Assembly (NCBI GenBank): GCA_905181675.1
Contig: CAJIYZ010000087.1
Location: forward strand, 1-33,637
Length of the DNA: 33,637 nt
Source of the DNA: Bacteroidetes bacterium MED-G20
Lineage (GTDB): Bacteria > Bacteroidota > Bacteroidia > Flavobacteriales_D > Parvicellaceae
Reading direction: 5' to 3'
A model generated the notes under the pieces. It was not told the DNA's origin, searched no databases, and saw nothing but the letters and a program-made list of their open reading frames with translations. The position numbers were made by a program, and so were the translations under genes. Shown piece after piece: positions 3,445-16,496 of this stretch; position 1 is the stretch's first letter, and each line of letters starts with the position of its first letter.

Positions 3445-3467
3445 TTATTTAGATTTATTCTAAATAA
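3445..3467. promoter_or_regulatory. Putative Fur/DtxR-type operator palindrome upstream of iron ABC operon
   Basis: TTATTTAGATT-T-ATTCTAAATAA: 11-1-11 inverted repeat with one mismatch, immediately upstream of the TATATTTG box. Confidence 0.65.
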
Positions 3468-3504: not shown

Positions 3505-4551
3505 ATGATTAGAATTTACTCCCTATTTTTCTCACTTTTCTTAGTCACTTCCTGTACAAATGAAAACAAAGAAAACAATCTAGAAAAGCAAAATGAAAGA
3601 GAATATTTGACTCTTTACACACATAGACATTACGACTCTGACAAGTTAATTTTTAAAAGATTTGAAGAAACAACTGGGATAATAATAAATGTTGTAAAAG
3701 CTAGTGCAGATGAATTAATACAAAAAATGGAAACCGAAGGAAATCAATCACCTGCAGATTTACTACTAACTGTAGATGCTGGTCGATTAGTAAGAGCTAA
3801 AAATAAAAACCTTCTCCAATCTGCTAATTCAGATATTTTAAACAGTACTATACCTATGCACCTTAAAGATTCTAGTAATTATTGGTTTGGATTAACCAAA
3901 AGAGCAAGAGTAATAGTATATAACAAAGAAACTGTAACATCATCAGATTTAGCAGACTACGAAGATTTGGTAAATGAAAAATGGAAGAATAAAATATTAA
4001 TTCGCTCCTCAAATAACATATACAATCAATCTTTAATGGCTTCTATTATTGCTAATAAGGGGATTGACTCAGCTAAAGTATGGGCTGAAGGCATTGTGAA
4101 TAATTTTGCAAGATCTCCAAAAGGAAACGATAGAGATCAAGTAAAAGCAATTTTAGCCAAAGAAGGAGATTTGGCAATTATAAACACTTACTATTTGGGT
4201 AAACTTATTAATTCTAAAGACTCTAACGAAGTAGCTGCAGGAAATGCTGTAGGTATATTTTTTCCAAATCAAGAAAATAGAGGGACTCATATAAATGTTA
4301 GTGGTATTGGTATTGCTAAAAATTCTAAAAACAAGTTAAATGCTATTAAATTCATAGAGTATTTAATAAGTGAAGAAGTTCAAGAGATTTTTGCTAATGC
4401 CAACTACGAATACCCAGTTAACAAGTATGCAAAATCTTCTAAATTGTTAGAGTCATGGGGGGAATTTAAAGAAGATAAGCTATCTTTAACTAAGCTAGGT
4501 GAACTCAACAAGAAAGCAGTAATTTTGTTTGATGAGGTTAAATGGCCTTAA
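3505..4551 (+). CDS. Fe(3+) ABC transporter substrate-binding lipoprotein (FbpA/FutA-like)
   Basis: Lipobox LVTSC; YTHRHYDSDKLIFKRFEETTGI start and DLLLTVDAGRLVRAKNKNLLQ typical of FutA/FbpA; followed by permease and ATPase genes. Confidence 0.93.
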   Translation: MIRIYSLFFSLFLVTSCTNENKENNLEKQNEREYLTLYTHRHYDSDKLIFKRFEETTGIIINVVKASADELIQKMETEGNQSPADLLLTVDAGRLVRAKNKNLLQSANSDILNSTIPMHLKDSSNYWFGLTKRARVIVYNKETVTSSDLADYEDLVNEKWKNKILIRSSNNIYNQSLMASIIANKGIDSAKVWAEGIVNNFARSPKGNDRDQVKAILAKEGDLAIINTYYLGKLINSKDSNEVAAGNAVGIFFPNQENRGTHINVSGIGIAKNSKNKLNAIKFIEYLISEEVQEIFANANYEYPVNKYAKSSKLLESWGEFKEDKLSLTKLGELNKKAVILFDEVKWP

Positions 4552-4572
4552 GCCAAACCTTCAAATAAAAAG

Positions 4573-6207
4573 ATGTTTTTAAACTTAAAACATTTTAAAA
4601 GAGACTTTAATAAATGGACGTTACTAATAGTAGCTATAAGTTTGTTTTTAGCCATTCCTGTATTTTCTATTTTAATAAGCCTTTTTAGAGGAAGTGGTGA
4701 GATGTGGGAACATATTACTTCCTACTTCCTTTTTGATTATATAAAAAATTCTACCGTCTTAATTATAGGTACGGGATTATTGACCTTTATAATTGGAACT
4801 TCAGCTGCATGGATTGTCTCTAGGTATTCATTTAGATTTAGGAAAATTATTGAATGGCTATTATTCATGCCTCTTGCTATTCCATCTTATATTGTTGCAT
4901 ACTCTTATGTTGGTTTGTTTGGAAATGGAGGAACATTTATAAATATTTTCAGCAATTTGGGTATTACTATAGATAGAATTGAAATGATGAATATTTATGG
5001 TCTAATTTGGGTTTTAAGTTTTTCTCTTTATCCGTATGTATATGCAGGAACTAGAACCATTTTTCAAAGTTTTCCTTCTCAACTAAAACATACAGCTTAT
5101 TTACTTGGAGTATCTAAAAGAAAATATTTCTTTTCCATTGCTCTACCCCTTGCCTCACCGGCTATAATTGGTGGTCTTTTTTTAGTGTTTATGGAAGTTT
5201 TAAATGACTATGGCGCTGCAAAATATTATGGCATAAGTACATTTACTACAGGGATATTTAGAACGTGGACAGCTCTTGAGGATTTACAATCTTCTATTTA
5301 CCTATCTGCTATTCTGGTAATTTTAGTTTTTCTTTTAGTTCTTATTGTAAAATGGTTAAAAGGAAGAAGATCTTATAGCTTAAAAAAAACTAATACCAAC
5401 CAAAAAAATAAAAATTACAGAAGTGAATTAAAAGGATTGAAAAAAATTACCTATTTAAGTATCGTATTTGTTCCTATTATTTTTGGCTTTATACTGCCAT
5501 TAATACAACTTTTAATTTGGGGGATTCAAACTTTTGATTCCATGTTTAATAGCGATTTGATAAGTTTAGCTTACCAAAGCCTGATGTTAGGTCTTTCTAC
5601 AGCAATGATTGTTGTCTTTCTTGCTTTGCTATTAATCTACCTTTCAAAATGGAATTATTTTAAACCATTAAATGTTTTTTCTAAAGTTGCCACATTGGGT
5701 TACGTAATTCCAGGCGCAATCATTGGTGTTGGAATTATAAGAACTAGTAAATCCTTGACCGATCTATTTAGTTTTCATTACGATATAGAAATTGGACATC
5801 TAATATACAACAGCCTTTTGGTACTTATTTATGCCTACGTATTTAGGTTTATAGCGGTAGCTTTTAACTCTATTGAAGGAAACACACTAAAACTTAATGA
5901 AAATTTATCAGAATCTTCTTACTTACTTGGCTATGGAAAAATTAAAACATTTTTTAAAATAGATTTTCCATTGTTAAAAAACGCCCTTCTTAGTTCATTT
6001 ATTCTGGTATTGATTGATGTAATGAAAGAATTGCCATTAACACTTATTTTAAAACCCTATGACATAAGTACACTTGCTGTTAGGGCATATGAATATGCCG
6101 AAGATGAAAGAGTTGGAGAAGCTGCTCTGCCAGCGTTATTTTTGATATTTTTAATTGGCAGCATGATTTCCATATTAAATTATAGGTTGAGAGTAAATAA
6201 AGATTAA
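4573..6207 (+). CDS. Iron(III) ABC transporter permease (FbpB-like, two fused permease domains)
   Basis: 544 aa, about 12 TM; EAA-like loops (AYLLGVSKRKYFFSIALPLASPAI; SYLLGYGKIKTFFKIDFPLLKNAL). Confidence 0.92.
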   Translation: MFLNLKHFKRDFNKWTLLIVAISLFLAIPVFSILISLFRGSGEMWEHITSYFLFDYIKNSTVLIIGTGLLTFIIGTSAAWIVSRYSFRFRKIIEWLLFMPLAIPSYIVAYSYVGLFGNGGTFINIFSNLGITIDRIEMMNIYGLIWVLSFSLYPYVYAGTRTIFQSFPSQLKHTAYLLGVSKRKYFFSIALPLASPAIIGGLFLVFMEVLNDYGAAKYYGISTFTTGIFRTWTALEDLQSSIYLSAILVILVFLLVLIVKWLKGRRSYSLKKTNTNQKNKNYRSELKGLKKITYLSIVFVPIIFGFILPLIQLLIWGIQTFDSMFNSDLISLAYQSLMLGLSTAMIVVFLALLLIYLSKWNYFKPLNVFSKVATLGYVIPGAIIGVGIIRTSKSLTDLFSFHYDIEIGHLIYNSLLVLIYAYVFRFIAVAFNSIEGNTLKLNENLSESSYLLGYGKIKTFFKIDFPLLKNALLSSFILVLIDVMKELPLTLILKPYDISTLAVRAYEYAEDERVGEAALPALFLIFLIGSMISILNYRLRVNKD

Positions 6208-6236
6208 CTAAGCTGTTTTTAAACAAAAAATTTATT

Positions 6237-6989
6237 ATGAAAATATTAGAAATTGAAAACCTATCTAAATCTTTTGATTCAAAATTTGAAGTAGTCTCTG
6301 GTTGTACTTTTAATATTGAATCTGGAAATATATGTGCCATTGTTGGTGAAAGCGGAAGTGGGAAAACTACATTATTTAGACTTATTGCTGGACTAGAAAG
6401 ACCAGATAGAGGAACCATTAAAATAAATGGCACATTGATGAGCAGCGATAAATTTATAAAAGACGTAAAGGATAGAAACGTTGGACTTGTATTTCAAGAC
6501 TTTTCACTATTTCCACATCTAACTGTAAAAGAAAACATTGAATTTGGTTTGAAAAAAAATAAGAATGAAAAAGTTGAAAAACTACTAGAAACTATTAAAA
6601 TGGAAAATTTCCCAAATAGATATCCACACGAACTAAGTGGAGGGCAACAGCAAAGAGTATCCTTGGCTAGATCACTAGCATTAGACCCTGAGCTTTTATT
6701 ATTGGATGAACCATTTAGTAGTTTAGATACTCAACTGAAATCAAAAATTAGACAAGAAATAAGAGATATCATAAAAAAAATAGGTATTTCATCTGTTTTT
6801 ATCACCCATGACATTCTAGATGCATTAGAAATTGCAGATGAAATTATTTTCATGGATAATGGAAAAATAATAAGACAGTGCTTAATTGAAGATGTTTTTA
6901 AGGAAATTAAAGACGAAAAAATTCAAAATAATATGGTTGAATTAAAAAGAAATGCTGAGCTAATTCTAAATGCGTTGAAAAACAAATAA
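6237..6989 (+). CDS. ABC transporter ATP-binding protein (FbpC-like)
   Basis: Walker A GESGSGKTT, signature LSGGQQQR, Walker B LLLLDEPF, H-loop THD. Confidence 0.94.
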   Translation: MKILEIENLSKSFDSKFEVVSGCTFNIESGNICAIVGESGSGKTTLFRLIAGLERPDRGTIKINGTLMSSDKFIKDVKDRNVGLVFQDFSLFPHLTVKENIEFGLKKNKNEKVEKLLETIKMENFPNRYPHELSGGQQQRVSLARSLALDPELLLLDEPFSSLDTQLKSKIRQEIRDIIKKIGISSVFITHDILDALEIADEIIFMDNGKIIRQCLIEDVFKEIKDEKIQNNMVELKRNAELILNALKNK

Positions 6990-6996
6990 ATATTTC

Positions 6997-7019
6997 TTAT
7001 TTAGAATCATTCTAAAATA
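6997..7019. promoter_or_regulatory. Second Fur/DtxR-type operator palindrome
   Basis: TTATTTAGAAT-C-ATTCTAAAATA; perfect core TTTAGAAT-C-ATTCTAAA (8-1-8); near-identical to 3445-3467. Confidence 0.7.
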
Positions 7020-7035
7020 CCATAAATAGGGTATT
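7016..7035. promoter_or_regulatory. Inverted repeat AATACC-N8-GGTATT next to putative -33 element
   Basis: AATACC ATAAATAG GGTATT; the same element is found at 15384-15403. Confidence 0.5.
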
Positions 7036-7064
7036 GCTCTATATACCGTCTTGAATTACTTTTG
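7034..7064 (+). promoter_or_regulatory. Putative promoter for DUF4856 operon (TTG-N20-TACTTTTG)
   Basis: TTG at 7034-7036 and TAnnTTTG match at 7057-7064, resembling the Bacteroidota TTTG-N19..21-TAnnTTTG consensus. Confidence 0.5.
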
Positions 7065-7107: not shown

Positions 7108-8271
7108 ATGAATAAATTAAACTTTAGACTTTTATTTACATGCGCAGTACTTGCATTATTTGCTAGTTGTGCAAAAAAAGGTTGTACAGATCCTCTAGCA
7201 ACAAACTACGATGCTGATGCAACAAAAGATGACGATGGTTGCGAGTACGCACAAGCACTTGTTGTTCCAAGCAACTACGTATTTACAGATGCTGATGGTA
7301 ACAATACAGTTTCTTACAGCGGACAAACATCTAGAATGGACATGCTTTCTGAAATGGTTTCTTATCTAAAAACTGCTAATGGAAGTAACCCTACACCTGC
7401 AACATTAGACGCTGCTACTTTACTAGCTATGTATGACAATTCATATACAGGATGGTCAGATACCACTTTAATTGATAATGGAAAACAACTTAAGAGCAAA
7501 ACTGCTGGAGATGATGTTGGTATTCAAGCAATGTTTGAAGGTTGGATGACTGATGCTGCTGCAGGGAGTCCAGATGTCACTGGATCATATCTACAAGATT
7601 CTTCTGGTATTGAATGGACGCAAATGATTGAAAAAGGTTTGATGGGCGCTTGTTTTGCTAGTCAAATGACTTCTAATTACCTAGCTGGCATCAGTACTGA
7701 TAATAACATTGATCCTGTTGACGCTGCTGCTGGAAAATATTATACAGAAATGGAACACCACTGGGATGAAGCATACGGATACTTTACTGATGCTTTTGAC
7801 TATCCAACTAATGGAACAAATAGATTTTGGGGTAAATATGCTAATAAATCTTACCTAGAAGACAATATTGGGTCAGCTACAGATATTTCTTTGGCATTTA
7901 GAACTGGAAGAGCAGCTATAAGTGCAGGTGATTCAGATGCTGCATTGGTTCAAGTAGGAATTCTAGAAACTGAAGTTAAGCAAATGGTTGCTGGAATGGC
8001 TTTACATTACTTAAACGATGTGAAATCTCAAATTGCTGCAGGTAATGCACAATCTAGTATCAACCACAGTATGTCTGAAGCTCTTGCATTTATTTTCGGA
8101 ATTCAGTTTGTTACTGATAGTCCAGATATGTCAAGTGCTGATGTTATGGTCTTAGTAAACCAAATAGCTCCAGATGTGACAGGTTTTTCAATGAATATTA
8201 CAGAAATTAATGTTGTGATTGATCAAGTTGCTGCTGCAGCTGGTTTAACAGATAAAAAAGATGACTTTTAG
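7108..8271 (+). CDS. DUF4856 domain-containing lipoprotein
   Basis: Lipobox LFASC; CTDPLATNYDADATKDDDGC motif; VSYSGQTSRMDMLSEM and TEMEHHWDEAYGYF motifs typical of DUF4856. Confidence 0.88.
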   Translation: MNKLNFRLLFTCAVLALFASCAKKGCTDPLATNYDADATKDDDGCEYAQALVVPSNYVFTDADGNNTVSYSGQTSRMDMLSEMVSYLKTANGSNPTPATLDAATLLAMYDNSYTGWSDTTLIDNGKQLKSKTAGDDVGIQAMFEGWMTDAAAGSPDVTGSYLQDSSGIEWTQMIEKGLMGACFASQMTSNYLAGISTDNNIDPVDAAAGKYYTEMEHHWDEAYGYFTDAFDYPTNGTNRFWGKYANKSYLEDNIGSATDISLAFRTGRAAISAGDSDAALVQVGILETEVKQMVAGMALHYLNDVKSQIAAGNAQSSINHSMSEALAFIFGIQFVTDSPDMSSADVMVLVNQIAPDVTGFSMNITEINVVIDQVAAAAGLTDKKDDF

Positions 8272-8330: not shown

Positions 8331-8365
8331 AACAAACACTCAACAAATGCTGTTGGGTGTTTGTT
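8331..8365 (+). terminator. Strong intergenic hairpin (intra-operon attenuator/terminator-like)
   Basis: AACAAACACTCAACA (8331-8345) / loop AATGC / TGTTGGGTGTTTGTT (8351-8365): 15-bp stem with one T-G wobble, outer CCAATC/GGTTGG arms, then TATTTTTA. Confidence 0.65.
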
Positions 8366-8388
8366 TGGTTGGTATTTTTACTAAAATT

Positions 8389-9576
8389 ATGAGTTTAAGA
8401 TTATTTAAAGTTTTATTTATTATTTCTTCTGTTTTGATTATTCAGAGCTGTAAAAAAAGTGGATGTACTGATCCTCAGGCATTAAACTATAATGTAGATG
8501 CTGAAAAAGAAGACAATAGCTGTCTTTATGAAGATTATGACAAATTATCTTTGCTTACTAACTTAGCTGACAATTATATTATTCCTTCGATGGATGCCTA
8601 CAAAAGTAAAGTTGCTAATTTAAACATTCATGTAGATTCATTTATAGAAAATCCAAGTATTTCCAACCTAACACTTCTAAGAACAAATTGGGAAGATGCA
8701 TTACTTAACTGGCAAGACATAGGTTTTTTAGACTTTGGTCCATCTGAATATATTTTATTAAGAAAACAAACCAATACATTCCCAATTGACACTACTGAAT
8801 TGAATAATTCTATTTCCATAGCCGATTGGAATTTAGAATATGCAAGTAGTTATGATTCCAAAGGTCTTCAAGCTTTAGACTACCTACTATTTAAACCTGG
8901 ACATACAGATAACCAATTAATTACTTATTTTCAGAACAATATAAATGCCAAAAACTATCTCAAGGCTTTGGCAGAAGATTTGAACCAAAATATTAACTAT
9001 GTTACCGATCAATGGGCAACCTACAGAGAAGATTTTATCAATGATTTTGAGGTTACTCAATCTAACTTTTCTACCAACTCACAAGGAAGTTCTATTAGTA
9101 ATATAATAAATGCATTGTGCTTACACTACGAATTTTACGTTAGAAGAGGAAAGGTAGGTCTTCCATTAGGCGTATTTAATGGTTTTTCACAATTAGAACT
9201 CCCTGGATTAGTAGAATGCTATTATTCTGGAAAATCTACACAAAATCTAGTGCGTTCTGTAACCTCTCTTAGAAAATATGTAAATGGTTCGAGTTACTTA
9301 AATAACGACAATGGAATTGGATTAGACGACTATATGGACTTTGTAACTGCTGAGCAAAATACCCAGCAGTTATCTAGAGTGATAGACAACCAATTTCTTG
9401 CTATATTTGAAGAATTAAATGGCATTAATGGGCCTCTAAGCGAAGAGATAATTAATAACAAGTCACAAGTATCCCAAACTTATCAAGAATTACAGCAATT
9501 AGTTCCATATATCAAAGTAGACATGACATCTGCATTGGGTGTTTTAATTACCTATCAAGACAATGACGGGGATTAA
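8389..9576 (+). CDS. Imelysin family lipoprotein (IrpA/ICMP-like)
   Basis: Start moved from 8347 to ATG 8389, giving MSLRLFKVLFIISSVLIIQSCKKSGC (lipobox). WEDALLNWQDIGFLDFGP and KGLQALDYLLF are imelysin-like. Confidence 0.85.
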   Translation: MSLRLFKVLFIISSVLIIQSCKKSGCTDPQALNYNVDAEKEDNSCLYEDYDKLSLLTNLADNYIIPSMDAYKSKVANLNIHVDSFIENPSISNLTLLRTNWEDALLNWQDIGFLDFGPSEYILLRKQTNTFPIDTTELNNSISIADWNLEYASSYDSKGLQALDYLLFKPGHTDNQLITYFQNNINAKNYLKALAEDLNQNINYVTDQWATYREDFINDFEVTQSNFSTNSQGSSISNIINALCLHYEFYVRRGKVGLPLGVFNGFSQLELPGLVECYYSGKSTQNLVRSVTSLRKYVNGSSYLNNDNGIGLDDYMDFVTAEQNTQQLSRVIDNQFLAIFEELNGINGPLSEEIINNKSQVSQTYQELQQLVPYIKVDMTSALGVLITYQDNDGD

Positions 9577-10954
9577 TAAATGGGTAAACCACTTAACTAA
9601 AAACCACGTTAGTATTTTTCCACTTTTAGTATTTCGAATCATTTTCGGAATAATGATGTTTTTCAGCACTTTAAGGTTTGCTTTAAAAGGGTGGATTTAT
9701 GACCTGTATGAAGTTCCTTCCTTTTTTTTTACTTACTATGGTTTTGATTGGATAAGTCCACTACCCTCTCCATATATGTATGTGGTATTTTCAATTCTAT
9801 TAATATCCTGCATATTTATAACTTTTGGTTTATTTTATAAATTTAATACCATAGTATTTTTTTCATTGTTTACCTACATAGAATTAATTGACAAAACCAA
9901 TTACTTAAATCATTATTATTTTATTTCACTAATTAGTTTGCTACTAATCTTCTTACCAGCCAATAGGAATTTTTCTTTGGACACTTATTTTGGGATTTGT
10001 AAAAGAAAAAACACAGTAAGTGCTTGGCAAATTAATATTGTTAAACTTCAAATAGGAATAGTATATTTTTTTGCTGGAATATCCAAACTTAATTACCACT
10101 GGTTAATTGAAGCACAACCCCTAATTAATTGGCTAAAACACCAGTCAGATTTTCCAATAATTGGGAAATTATTACTTTATGACTTTACAGCATACATATT
10201 TAGTTGGGTAGGTGCGATATTTGATATCTTAATATTTTTCCTGCTTATTTCTAGAAGATGGCGAGTAATTGGCTATTGTATAGCCTTTGTTTTTCATATT
10301 ATGACTGCAGTTATGTTTCCCATAGGCGTTTTTCCTTATGTTATGATTGCAAGTACATTAATATTCTTTAACGATAATTTTCACAAAAAAATAATTGATT
10401 TTATTTCTAAATATAGTTTACTTAAAAAAAGTCAATTCAATATAGAAGAACAAAATTATACATCTTCGAACAGTAATATATTAAAGGTTTTTTTAATAGG
10501 CTTTTTTACTGTTCAGTTCTTTTTACCTATGAGATTTATTCTATATCCAGGAAAATTATTTTGGACAGAACAAGGTTATAGATTTAGCTGGAGAGTAATG
10601 CTAATTGAAAAAGCTGGGTATTCTCAATTTTATATACACGAACCAAAAATGGATAGAAAAATGTTAATCCAAAATAGAGACTATTTAACACCACAACAAG
10701 AAAAAATGATGTCTACTCAACCAGATATGATTTTACAATATGCCCATTATCTATCCGATACCTTTAAGGATTCAACCATAATAGAATCTAATGGAGAAAT
10801 CATAAAAATGGGAGATAACCCAAAAATAACAGCCGATATTACAGTAAGTCTTTTTAACAAAGGCAGTAGAAAATTTATAGATCCAAAACAGAACTTATCT
10901 GAATCTAAAAGAGGTTTTACAAATAAAGAATGGATACTTGATTATGAAAATTAA
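9563..10954 (+). CDS. HTTM domain / vitamin-K-dependent gamma-carboxylase-like membrane protein
   Basis: Multi-TM; VKLQIGIVYFFAGISKLNYHWL and LYPGKLFWTEQGYRFSWRVMLIEKAGYSQF motifs of bacterial VKGC/HTTM proteins; overlaps the imelysin gene by 14 bp. Confidence 0.88.
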   Translation: MTGINKWVNHLTKNHVSIFPLLVFRIIFGIMMFFSTLRFALKGWIYDLYEVPSFFFTYYGFDWISPLPSPYMYVVFSILLISCIFITFGLFYKFNTIVFFSLFTYIELIDKTNYLNHYYFISLISLLLIFLPANRNFSLDTYFGICKRKNTVSAWQINIVKLQIGIVYFFAGISKLNYHWLIEAQPLINWLKHQSDFPIIGKLLLYDFTAYIFSWVGAIFDILIFFLLISRRWRVIGYCIAFVFHIMTAVMFPIGVFPYVMIASTLIFFNDNFHKKIIDFISKYSLLKKSQFNIEEQNYTSSNSNILKVFLIGFFTVQFFLPMRFILYPGKLFWTEQGYRFSWRVMLIEKAGYSQFYIHEPKMDRKMLIQNRDYLTPQQEKMMSTQPDMILQYAHYLSDTFKDSTIIESNGEIIKMGDNPKITADITVSLFNKGSRKFIDPKQNLSESKRGFTNKEWILDYEN

Positions 10955-13367
10955 ATTACTAGGTTTACTATTGTTTTTATCCATTCAAATTTTATCCCAA
11001 AAAGGTAAGATATCAGGATTTATCACCCAATCAAATAACAATCCATTAGCATACACTACAGTATATATAGAGAAAATAAATAAGGTTTTTTACACAAATA
11101 ATCTCGGGTTTTTTACGATTCCAAAAATCAACTACGGAGAGTATGTAATTAGTTATTATTTATCTGGTTTTACCAAAAAGAGCGATACCATAAATTTAAA
11201 CCAGTCCTACTTAAATTTACCGAAAATTATACTTGAAGAATTAAGCTATGATTTAAAAGAATATGAAATAAAACAAGACGAAGAATTCAATATTAGAAAG
11301 TTGCGAGCTATTGAAGGAGTTATGATTACTCAAGGTAAAAAAACAGAAGCTATTTCCGTGGAGTCTTTAGACGCTAATAAAGCTACCAACCAAAGTAGAC
11401 AGATTTACTCAAAAATACCGGGAATAAATATATGGGAAAGCGATGGTGCTGGAATTCAGTTGGGATTGGGAGGAAGAGGCTTAAACCCTAGTAGAAACTC
11501 CAATTACAACACAAGACAAAATGGATACGACATTAGTGCAGATGCTTTAGGTTATCCAGAAAGTTATTACAGTCCGCCATCTGAAGCAATTCAAGAAATT
11601 CAATTAATTAGAGGAGCTGCATCTTTACAATTTGGTCCGCAATTTGGTGGTTTGATAAATTTCAAATTAAAAGACGGTAATTCGAACAAAAAAATAGAAT
11701 CTGTTATTAGACATACAGTAGGTTCTTACAACTTAAATAATTCTTTTGTTAGTTTGGGTGGAACCAATAAAAAGTTCAAATACTATGGCTTTGCAAACTT
11801 TAAATTCGGAGATGATTGGCGGCCAAATTCTTCATTTAATTTAAAAAATGGATACTTGCATTTGACTTACTCCCCCAATGAGAAAACAAATTTAAATTTT
11901 GAGATTACTAAAATGAACTATCTAGCTCAACAACCTGGTGGTCTAACAGATCAAGCATTTACAATCAATCCTGACACATCATTTAGAAAACGAAATTGGT
12001 TTAAAGTAGATTGGAATTTGGCAGCATTTCAGTTAGATTATGAGTTTAATTCTAGTACTAGACTAAATTCTAGAACCTTTGGGTTAATTGCTTCTAGAGA
12101 ATCTTTGGGATATTTAGACCAAATAAACAGAATTGATCCAGGAGAGGATAGGAATTTAATTTCAGGTAAATTTAAAAATATTGGCAACGAAACTAGACTT
12201 ATTCATTTATACGAAAGAAATAAGTTGCCTTGGGCTTTTGTAGTTGGAACAAGAGTTTACAGAGGGAATAGTGAAAACACACAAGGAGAGTCCAATAATT
12301 TAAGTGGGCCAGATTTTTATTTCTCAAATAACACCTCTAGTATCTCATCTGACAATATAGAAAGTAATTATATTTTCCCAAGCTTTAACTTTTCTGTTTT
12401 TGCAGAACACATATTCAACATTACTGAAAAACTAAGCATTACACCTGGATTAAGGTATGAATATATTGCTACATCAGCTAATGGCGATTATAGAACAGCC
12501 TATAATGATCTTGCCGGTAATTTAATTTTTGATACTGTTACAAATATTAAAAGAGTAAACAATAGAGATTTACTTCTTACAGGAATTGGATTTAACTTTA
12601 AGTTAAATGAAGAAATTGAAATTTACGCCAACATTTCACAAAATTATAGAAGTGTGAATTTCACCGACATGCAAATAAGAAATCCTAATTTCAGAATTGA
12701 TCCTGTACTTAAAGATGAGCAAGGATACAATAGCGATTTAGGAATAAGAGGAAGATTAAAAGACGTCCTTTATTTTGATGCTTCTTTATTCTACTTGTTT
12801 TATAATAATAGAATTGGGAATACTATACAAATTGATTCCAATCTTTACAATACTTACCAGTACAGAACCAATATTTCTCAATCTAGAACCTATGGATTTG
12901 AATCTGTAGTAGAATGTGATTGGTGGAAAATATTTTCGGATAAAAAAGATTATAAATGGACAACATTTTTAAATATCGCTTACAACAATGCCATGTATAT
13001 CAGCTCTGATATTTCTGCATTTTATCGAAAAAAAGTGGAAATGGTTCCCCCGTTAATATTTAGATCCGGAATGACAGTAGGTGGTGATAAACTATCTATT
13101 TCCTACCAATATAGTTTTACAAAAGAACACTATTCAGACGCTACAAATTCAGATTCACAAATAAATGCCGTAGTAGGATTAATTCCTTCTTACTCAGTTA
13201 TGGACTTGTCTTTAAAATATACCTACAAAAAAATACAAATAGAGACTGGAATAAATAATATAAATAACGCATCGTACTTCACAAGAAGAGCTGTAGCTTA
13301 CCCTGGGCCAGGAATAATACCATCTATGCCTAGGAATTTTTACATTTGCCTACAAATAAAAATATAA
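10944..13367 (+). CDS. TonB-dependent receptor, FecA-like, with N-terminal carboxypeptidase-regulatory-like domain
   Basis: ATG 10944 gives MKIKLLGLLLFLSIQILSQKGKISGFI. Plug motif IQEIQLIRGAASLQFGPQFGGLINFKLK; beta-barrel pattern with C-terminal aromatic/hydrophobic strand. Confidence 0.93.
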   Translation: MKIKLLGLLLFLSIQILSQKGKISGFITQSNNNPLAYTTVYIEKINKVFYTNNLGFFTIPKINYGEYVISYYLSGFTKKSDTINLNQSYLNLPKIILEELSYDLKEYEIKQDEEFNIRKLRAIEGVMITQGKKTEAISVESLDANKATNQSRQIYSKIPGINIWESDGAGIQLGLGGRGLNPSRNSNYNTRQNGYDISADALGYPESYYSPPSEAIQEIQLIRGAASLQFGPQFGGLINFKLKDGNSNKKIESVIRHTVGSYNLNNSFVSLGGTNKKFKYYGFANFKFGDDWRPNSSFNLKNGYLHLTYSPNEKTNLNFEITKMNYLAQQPGGLTDQAFTINPDTSFRKRNWFKVDWNLAAFQLDYEFNSSTRLNSRTFGLIASRESLGYLDQINRIDPGEDRNLISGKFKNIGNETRLIHLYERNKLPWAFVVGTRVYRGNSENTQGESNNLSGPDFYFSNNTSSISSDNIESNYIFPSFNFSVFAEHIFNITEKLSITPGLRYEYIATSANGDYRTAYNDLAGNLIFDTVTNIKRVNNRDLLLTGIGFNFKLNEEIEIYANISQNYRSVNFTDMQIRNPNFRIDPVLKDEQGYNSDLGIRGRLKDVLYFDASLFYLFYNNRIGNTIQIDSNLYNTYQYRTNISQSRTYGFESVVECDWWKIFSDKKDYKWTTFLNIAYNNAMYISSDISAFYRKKVEMVPPLIFRSGMTVGGDKLSISYQYSFTKEHYSDATNSDSQINAVVGLIPSYSVMDLSLKYTYKKIQIETGINNINNASYFTRRAVAYPGPGIIPSMPRNFYICLQIKI

Positions 13368-15383: not shown

Positions 15384-15403
15384 AATACCATTTTATAGGT
15401 ATT
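15384..15403. promoter_or_regulatory. Inverted repeat AATACC-N8-GGTATT upstream of hemerythrin gene
   Basis: AATACC ATTTTATA GGTATT; same element and same downstream spacing as 7016-7035. Confidence 0.5.
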
Positions 15404-15432
15404 GATAAAAAGTAAGGAAATCAATTAATTTG
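15402..15432 (+). promoter_or_regulatory. Putative promoter for hemerythrin operon (TTG-N20-TTAATTTG)
   Basis: TTG 15402-15404; TTAATTTG 15425-15432, imperfect TAnnTTTG; 16 nt upstream of ATG 15449. Confidence 0.4.
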
Positions 15433-15448: not shown

Positions 15449-16168
15449 ATGATATCGACTTTATATTCACCAAAATTTATAACCAAATACAATAGAAATA
15501 TTAACCACCTATTTAATCGTTATGAAATTGCTCCAGAATCCACTGAAAATTTAAATGCAATTTGCACAAAAGAAGAAATCAATGTTGATTTATTAGCCGA
15601 TCTTATTAATTGTTATAATGATTTAGGTTTTTTAAAAAAAGCTAAATTTGGAAATTATAAAATTCCAGAGTTAGTAGATTATCTTGAAAGATCTCATAAA
15701 TATTATCTTGAAAAAAGAATTCCTGAGCTAGAACAAAGTCTTTTAAAACTAACCCAGCAAGAAAGTTTTTCATTTAATTATGTGCTAATTAATTTTTTCA
15801 AAGAGTACAAAAAAGATATTGTTTCACATTTTAAAACTGAAGATGAAATACTATTTCCATTTTGTAAGGTTTTGTATAATTATATGCAATTTAATACTCA
15901 AGAAGATTTAATATTCGTCCTTGAAAATCAGAAAAAAGCATTTGAACTTATGAAGCATCATAAAGACAATAAGGATGAAATTGATGACCTTCAAAGAGTT
16001 CTATTAAAATATTCTCCTAACGGAAAAAAACTATCTTACTTTGAAATATTTTTAAATCAAATGAGTATTTTCCAACAAGACTTAAAAATACATGCCGAGA
16101 TTGAAGAAAATGTTTTAATGAAAAAAACAATTGCCATTCTTAATAATCTTGAAATTAAAAATGTTTGA
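15449..16168 (+). CDS. Hemerythrin-like diiron domain protein
   Basis: Ordered His/acidic ligands: RSHKYYLE, SHFKTEDEILFP, KHHKDNKDE, IHAEIEENVL. Confidence 0.8.
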   Translation: MISTLYSPKFITKYNRNINHLFNRYEIAPESTENLNAICTKEEINVDLLADLINCYNDLGFLKKAKFGNYKIPELVDYLERSHKYYLEKRIPELEQSLLKLTQQESFSFNYVLINFFKEYKKDIVSHFKTEDEILFPFCKVLYNYMQFNTQEDLIFVLENQKKAFELMKHHKDNKDEIDDLQRVLLKYSPNGKKLSYFEIFLNQMSIFQQDLKIHAEIEENVLMKKTIAILNNLEIKNV

Positions 16169-16496
16169 CAATCATATAAAAAACGAAAAGCTTTTACACG
16201 AAAACAAAGTAGGAACTATAGTTCAGTGTAATTCATGTAAAAAGATTTCTATTATAGTTAACAATATTAACTATGTATGTGATGAGAAACAATACAATGA
16301 ACTTTTTCAAATTGTTGAAAATATAGACCAAAATTTAGAAGATTATATTTATAATATAATGGGAATTAACTATGTAATACTAAATACACCGTTAGACAAA
16401 GTAAATTTAATATTTAATTTAAATCAATTTGAAGACCTAACAGAACTGCTTAATCAAGCTAAATATATGTTAGAAGTACACAAACTGTTTTATTAA
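16161..16496 (+). CDS. Small DUF6686-like protein with CxxC motif
   Basis: ATG at 16161 overlaps hemerythrin stop by 8 nt; LLHENKVGTIVQCNSCKKISIIVNNINYVC. Confidence 0.55.
   Translation: MFDNHIKNEKLLHENKVGTIVQCNSCKKISIIVNNINYVCDEKQYNELFQIVENIDQNLEDYIYNIMGINYVILNTPLDKVNLIFNLNQFEDLTELLNQAKYMLEVHKLFY

Follow-up and report, generated by a model that had tools for sequence, protein, structure and literature searches.

Among described systems, CdhR (PG1237/PGN_1373) of Porphyromonas gingivalis comes closest to the control circuit considered here. It is a LuxR-type regulator that is encoded beside a hemerythrin-domain gene and is tied to iron and heme uptake. Hemerythrin and CdhR share an operon in P. 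gingivalis (PG1236-1237) and B. thetaiotaomicron (BT_0519-0520), where they are iron-regulated, and in Prevotella intermedia the two are fused (PMC10434189). CdhR regulates hmuYR by a mechanism stated as unclear (PMC10434189), and activation of the hmu genes has been ascribed to it (PMC10101095). No CdhR binding motif was found in the literature that we searched. A second point of comparison is the NarL/FixJ family, including NarL, VraR, and DevR, whose sites overlap the -35 region. The NarL site, which we take to be the 7-2-7 repeat TACYYMT, resembles the TACC...GGTA inverted repeat analyzed below. A palindrome of 20-22 bp with TACC/GGTA ends, centered near -43.5, suits activators of the NarL/LuxR type.

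The DNA studied here, referred to as the window, is the whole 33,637-nucleotide stretch of a contig from Bacteroidetes bacterium MED-G20 (family Parvicellaceae, class Bacteroidia). It holds two copies of the palindrome AATACC-N8-GGTATT, which on comparative sequence evidence is a real, conserved control site that keeps its position relative to the promoter throughout Bacteroidia. We estimate a probability of just under 0.8 that this element is the operator of a NarL/LuxR-type, CdhR-like regulator (X) at promoters for iron acquisition and iron sparing in Bacteroidia, with X likely acting as an activator.

Operator sites and promoter register

The original prediction placed an inverted repeat at 7016, in front of the DUF4856 operon, and the same arrangement at 15384, including the 20-nt spacing to the -7 box. 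Both are present (Table 1). With the next base included, they read AATACCATAAATAGGGTATTG (7016-7036) and AATACCATTTTATAGGTATTG (15384-15404), and the genes that start just downstream are DUF4856 (7108) and the hemerythrin-domain gene (15449). These are the only two exact matches in the window, which has 30% G+C. The expected number of 6-8-6 matches per window was 0.004 from base composition and 0.0075 from a Markov simulation, and none of 400 simulated windows contained two. At roughly 0.004-0.008 expected per window, the two matches are as unlikely by chance as had been claimed, and the worry that the motif was chosen after being seen is settled by independent genomes. The whole 1.73-Mb assembly has three exact sites vs. 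approximately 0.2 expected; the third (C27) is intragenic, as are nearly all one-mismatch sites in this genome.

Table 1. Features of the two promoters and the genes they precede (window coordinates).
Feature	Position	Strand	Remarks
Fur-type box ATTTAGAATCATTCTAAAA	6999-7017	none	7-1-7 core TTAGAATCATTCTAA at 7001-7015; adjoins operator 1
Operator 1, AATACC-N8-GGTATT (AATACCATAAATAGGGTATT)	7016-7035	none	DUF4856 operon promoter; conserved upstream of DUF4856 in several family genera
TTG, -33 element overlapping right arm of operator 1	7034-7036	+	G at this place in 48/53 oriented sites; mirror position A
-7 element TACTTTTG	7057-7064	+	N20 after TTG; TAnnTTTG consensus
DUF4856 lipoprotein-like gene	7108-8271	+	PF16148
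Imelysin (Peptidase_M75) gene	8347-9576	+	PF09375
HTTM / VKGC-lumenal domain protein gene	9563-10954	+	PF05090, PF22777
TonB-dependent receptor gene, start codon uncertain	10938-13367	+	Named from translation
Operator 2, AATACC-N8-GGTATT (AATACCATTTTATAGGTATT)	15384-15403	none	Hemerythrin promoter; conserved upstream of this gene (cluster c4) in several genera
TTG, -33 element, hemerythrin promoter	15402-15404	+	Overlaps right arm of operator 2
-7 element TTAATTTG	15425-15432	+	N20 after TTG; one mismatch to TAnnTTTG
Hemerythrin-domain gene, RIC/YtfE-like	15449-16168	+	PF01814; TIGR03652 57 bits, below cut-off
DUF6686 gene, likely co-transcribed with hemerythrin	16161-16496	+	PF20391

Of the 39 family genomes, 34 have the exact pattern, and the reversed control gave 0-1 matches per genome. 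When the sites were retrieved and the surrounding genes called, nearly all lay between genes. Sites within long reading frames were excluded, as were two in L065 that neighbor a transposase-like gene, and 65 family sites remained. Many random copies outside promoters and absence from orthologous upstream regions had been named beforehand as counter-evidence, and neither was seen; copies are nearly all intergenic and precede orthologous genes. Among 393 class genomes, 67 contain the 49-bp layout AATACC-N8-GGTATTG-N20-TAnnTTTG (reversed control, 0), and the register is nearly invariant across about 25 families. In exact-pattern counts for the phylum, matches outside the class looked mostly intragenic or GC-rich and were set aside. 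Family f25 appeared enriched at first, but its listed sites are not at iron genes. Separately, palindromes resembling AATACCCAGTACTGGGTATT are abundant in three genomes of family f9 (G233, G313, and G114), with as many as 21 exact matches in G313, and seem to form an unrelated intergenic repeat. An earlier published AATACC motif was not found in the largely open-access literature that was searched.

The palindrome keeps a fixed distance to TAnnTTTG, the published sigma-A -7 consensus of Bacteroidota, in Flavobacterium (PMC9723704). Taking both orientations of the 65 family sites (130 site-orientations), at least five of the six -7 positions were matched at offset 21 in 53, compared with 1.6% at other offsets. 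Of 90 promoter-directed orientations, 23 had the full TAnnTTTG at offset 21 from GGTATT and three had it at offset 20, while all remaining offsets up to 60 accounted for three in total. With the first T of the -7 box set as -12, the palindrome spans -53 to -34, with its center at about -43.5, and TTG spans -35 to -33. The register GGTATTG-N20-TAnnTTTG is thus nearly rigid, its 20-nt spacing holding in both the family and the class, which supports the predicted fusion of a putative regulator-binding element, common to the two promoters, to the -33 region. The right arm had been given as GGTATTG; this arm does run into the -33 TTG, but its final G belongs to the promoter. In the oriented logo, the -33 base is G in 48/53 sites, and since its mirror base at -54 is mostly A (34/53) and rarely C (4/53), the G is a promoter element outside the palindrome. 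The operator proper is AAATACC-HYWWWWRD-GGTATTT.

A different position is seen at the sufA promoter of genus g7. There, the -7 box is part of the right arm (GGTATTTTTG), with TTTG or GTTG 23 nt upstream, which places the AATACC box between -33 and -7, centered at about -18.5. In three loci of this genus (L084, L087, and L090), a Fur-type box follows downstream of the AATACC box, an arrangement suggestive of repression at those promoters.

Iron regulon and neighboring Fur-type boxes

The families of the genes downstream of the operators were confirmed by profile. Family operators precede genes for DUF4856, hemerythrin, feoAB (FeoB), an FTR1-type iron permease, flavodoxin, HesB/SufA, and ZIP proteins, and together these genes make up an iron regulon. 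Orthologs of both window genes, DUF4856 and hemerythrin, are preceded by the operator in several genera of the family. In the window, an HTTM / vitamin K-dependent gamma-carboxylase-like gene (9563-10954) is found between the imelysin and TonB receptor genes, within an iron operon. Elsewhere in the window, a one-mismatch Fur-type box (TTAGATTTATTCTAA, 3449-3463) lies approximately 40 bp upstream of an Fbp-like ABC transporter operon (3505-6989).

A Fur-like palindrome had been predicted to overlap the element, so that the DUF4856 promoter might integrate two signals. The 19-mer at 6999-7017 is a 7-1-7 palindrome with an AATNATT core near iron genes, and it has only 2 nt in common with the AATACC palindrome. 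Its core TTAGAATCATTCTAA adjoins the operator in seven genomes of the same genus (G000, G017, G019, G020, G021, G023, and G024), in either genome orientation. Across the family, the 19-mer ATTTAGAATNATTCTAAAT, with up to three mismatches, occurs within 80 bp of 35 of the 65 operators, compared with 0.6% for shuffled flanks. Its position varies, from just upstream of the operator to around the start site, and in four genomes (G581, G722, G725, and G736) a Fur-type box (TTTAGAATNATTCTAAA) fills the spacer from -33 to -7. The likeness to a Fur box rests on the core of the neighboring box TTAGAATNATTCTAA; we take the AATNATT core of the ATTTAGAATNATTCTAAAT box to be typical of Fur-family sites, and on that ground the box may be assigned to Fur. 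With this putative Fur site conserved beside the operator, the proposal of two signals is supported.

A CdhR-like candidate regulator and the sign of its action

Across the class, the gene directly upstream of a site repeatedly encodes X, a receiver-like protein of the LuxR type with about 225 aa. In 11 of the 67 layout genomes, the X gene precedes the layout on the same strand, at no more than 250 bp in nine of them. The distances are 3 bp (G449), 13 bp (G500), 26 bp (G725), 31 bp (G747), 33 bp (G736), 55 bp (G581), 69 bp (G640), 117 bp (G621), and 246 bp (G529), with about 1 kb in G663 and G463. By our estimate, about 0.02 such cases would be expected for some 80 sites. Within the family, X followed by ZIP comes with an exact site in L340 and L341, and X followed by FeoA with a one-mismatch site in L345, L350, L351, and L355. 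Genus g9 has a one-mismatch site downstream of X (L342 and L343), and in two g9 genomes X is present and the exact site absent, with only near matches downstream of X.

Presence of X follows the site as well. In an alignment query, X was detected in 34 of 39 family genomes, with one strong match each (most at E<1e-68, the next best near 1e-39), and in genomes of the same genus it was the only match at E<=1e-10. At class level, X is encoded in 55 of the 67 layout genomes and in 146 of the 326 others (Fisher P=1e-8). These classes were counted by hand from the layout and X tables, and the survey, in which seven candidates were scored per genome, used a threshold of 1e-40 that may include paralogs. 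The co-occurrence is not tight, as an X-like protein is also found in 45% of the class genomes that lack the strict layout. Twelve layout genomes have no X; six of them fall in families f12, f13, and f112, which have shorter LuxR cousins (L322 and L324), and another is the window's own incomplete assembly. X was not found in that assembly (G000, 84% complete), though sites are present, nor in G012 (95%), G018 (92%), G009, or G022, all with sites. Incomplete assembly explains the number of X-less family genomes, though not each case.

The domain structure of X resembles that of the NarL/FixJ family in its GerE helix-turn-helix (PF00196, E about 1e-19), and its relatives include NarL and VraR, of which VraR is the best solved one. 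The receiver domain (PF00072) scores 29.3 bits in L353 and 32.6 bits in L310, against a cut-off of 30.2. In contrast to NarL, VraR, and DevR, part of the phosphorylation pocket is gone: a D55-type residue is kept, the acidic pair DD is ADS (AGS in L329), and the Lys is replaced in L329. As the pocket is incomplete, we call X a receiver-like LuxR-type protein and not a canonical response regulator. No partner kinase gene was seen next to X. Two cysteines in the receiver-like domain, in KK(D/E)C and FFC, are invariant in all 31 aligned longer-form X proteins, whereas the shorter cousins of L322 and L324 lack them. Together with the incomplete pocket, they would suit metal or redox sensing.

The same two loci provide the link to CdhR. 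In L324, a hemerythrin gene and then a LuxR-type gene come after the layout, and the window hemerythrin is homologous to this hemerythrin (BLASTP E=8e-23); in L322, a hemerythrin and LuxR pair precedes the layout. From these gene pairs, which here stand next to the AATACC layout, L322 and L324 are probably Bacteroidales. Outside that order, X differs from CdhR in being longer, with its receiver-like domain and two invariant cysteines, and in not being adjacent to hemerythrin. In the family studied here, the gene after hemerythrin is DUF6686 and the gene after X is ZIP or FeoA, and there is no operon of hemerythrin and X. X is here called CdhR-like, and not CdhR, a likeness drawn from published description and gene context.

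We propose that a dimer of X would bind AAATACC-HYWWWWRD-GGTATTT between -53 and -34. There it would sit beside sigma region 4, itself on the -33 TTG, contact RNA polymerase, and most likely activate transcription. When iron is replete, Fur would repress from a separate 7-1-7 box, located next to or within the same promoter. The operon of DUF4856, imelysin, HTTM, and TonB receptor genes would receive both inputs, while only the X site is clear at the hemerythrin gene, whose product may feed back on X as a sensor of iron, oxygen, or NO.

A serious, though less probable, alternative is that X reads the same operator as a repressor, occluding the -33 element or the spacer between -33 and -7, so that these promoters would carry sites for two repressors, X and Fur. 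All genes of the regulon would then be regulated by X with the same sign as by Fur. An intact core promoter (-33 TTG in 48/53, with -7 boxes) is what would be expected of a repressed promoter and not of an activator-dependent one, and the box in the g7 suf promoters, between TTTG at -33 and the -7 box, is at a repressor position. However, sites of repressors tend to vary in position, as is the case here for the Fur-type box, and the register at -43.5 is nearly invariant in about 25 families; CdhR, the closest named relative of X, is described as an hmu activator (PMC10101095). Because of this near-invariant register and the CdhR precedent, we lean modestly toward activation over repression.

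Other candidate readers and biological meaning

It is improbable that the AATACC operator is instead an unusual site read by Fur itself or by another Fur paralog. Fur is found in 37 of 39 family genomes, the regulon is iron-related, and Fur-type boxes stand in the same promoters as the operator. However, these promoters already hold a textbook 7-1-7 box with an AATNATT core, and the AATACC palindrome is built differently: it has an even 6-8-6 center (W4) without the odd AATNATT core, GG/CC arms, and a fixed register. A Zur-like Fur paralog was considered as the reader and rejected, as it heads its own regulon with the palindrome TGCAACANTGTTGCA. In L298-L305, TGCAACANTGTTGCA precedes an operon of a TonB receptor, a small Cys-rich protein, and this paralog, and it is likely a Zur operator.

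A reader of the DtxR/MntR type is less probable still. DtxR is present in 34 of 39 family genomes and its family often controls metal genes, but the dtxR promoter region has a different conserved palindrome, TTTTTAG-N6-CTAAAAA, which the AATACC operator does not match. In addition, G388, in which PF02742 has no match, still has a single exact AATACC site, at the feoAB promoter. In L159-L188 (e.g., L163, 1247-1314), TTTTTAG-N6-CTAAAAA is located between the DtxR/MntR-like gene and a divergent TonB-receptor-like gene, and it is likely the DtxR operator of the family. An AATACC box autoregulating Fur or DtxR was looked for, and none was found. An Rrf2-family regulator (IscR, RirA, or NsrR type) would fit a regulon that includes suf, flavodoxin, and a RIC-like hemerythrin but can practically be set aside, with an Rrf2 match in 0 of 11 genomes of the same genus, several of them >90% complete.

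Beyond the assignment of the operator to X, we tentatively consider a broader reading, itself rather unlikely as it stands. X would be the ancestral iron or redox sensor of Bacteroidia, sensing directly through its two invariant cysteines and/or through a hemerythrin partner, in a class-wide two-input circuit with Fur in which the activator site is fused to the -33 element. According to a 2023 survey covering three species, little is known of the mechanisms of iron control in Bacteroidota (PMC10434189). The present analysis adds a specific operator with its exact register, a candidate for the regulator, and a list of targets across about 25 families of the class. With these now defined, control of iron genes of the CdhR type becomes directly testable with one probe and one knockout in a harmless strain. 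If the LuxR-type reader is the true one, Bacteroidia would have a second iron switch alongside Fur.
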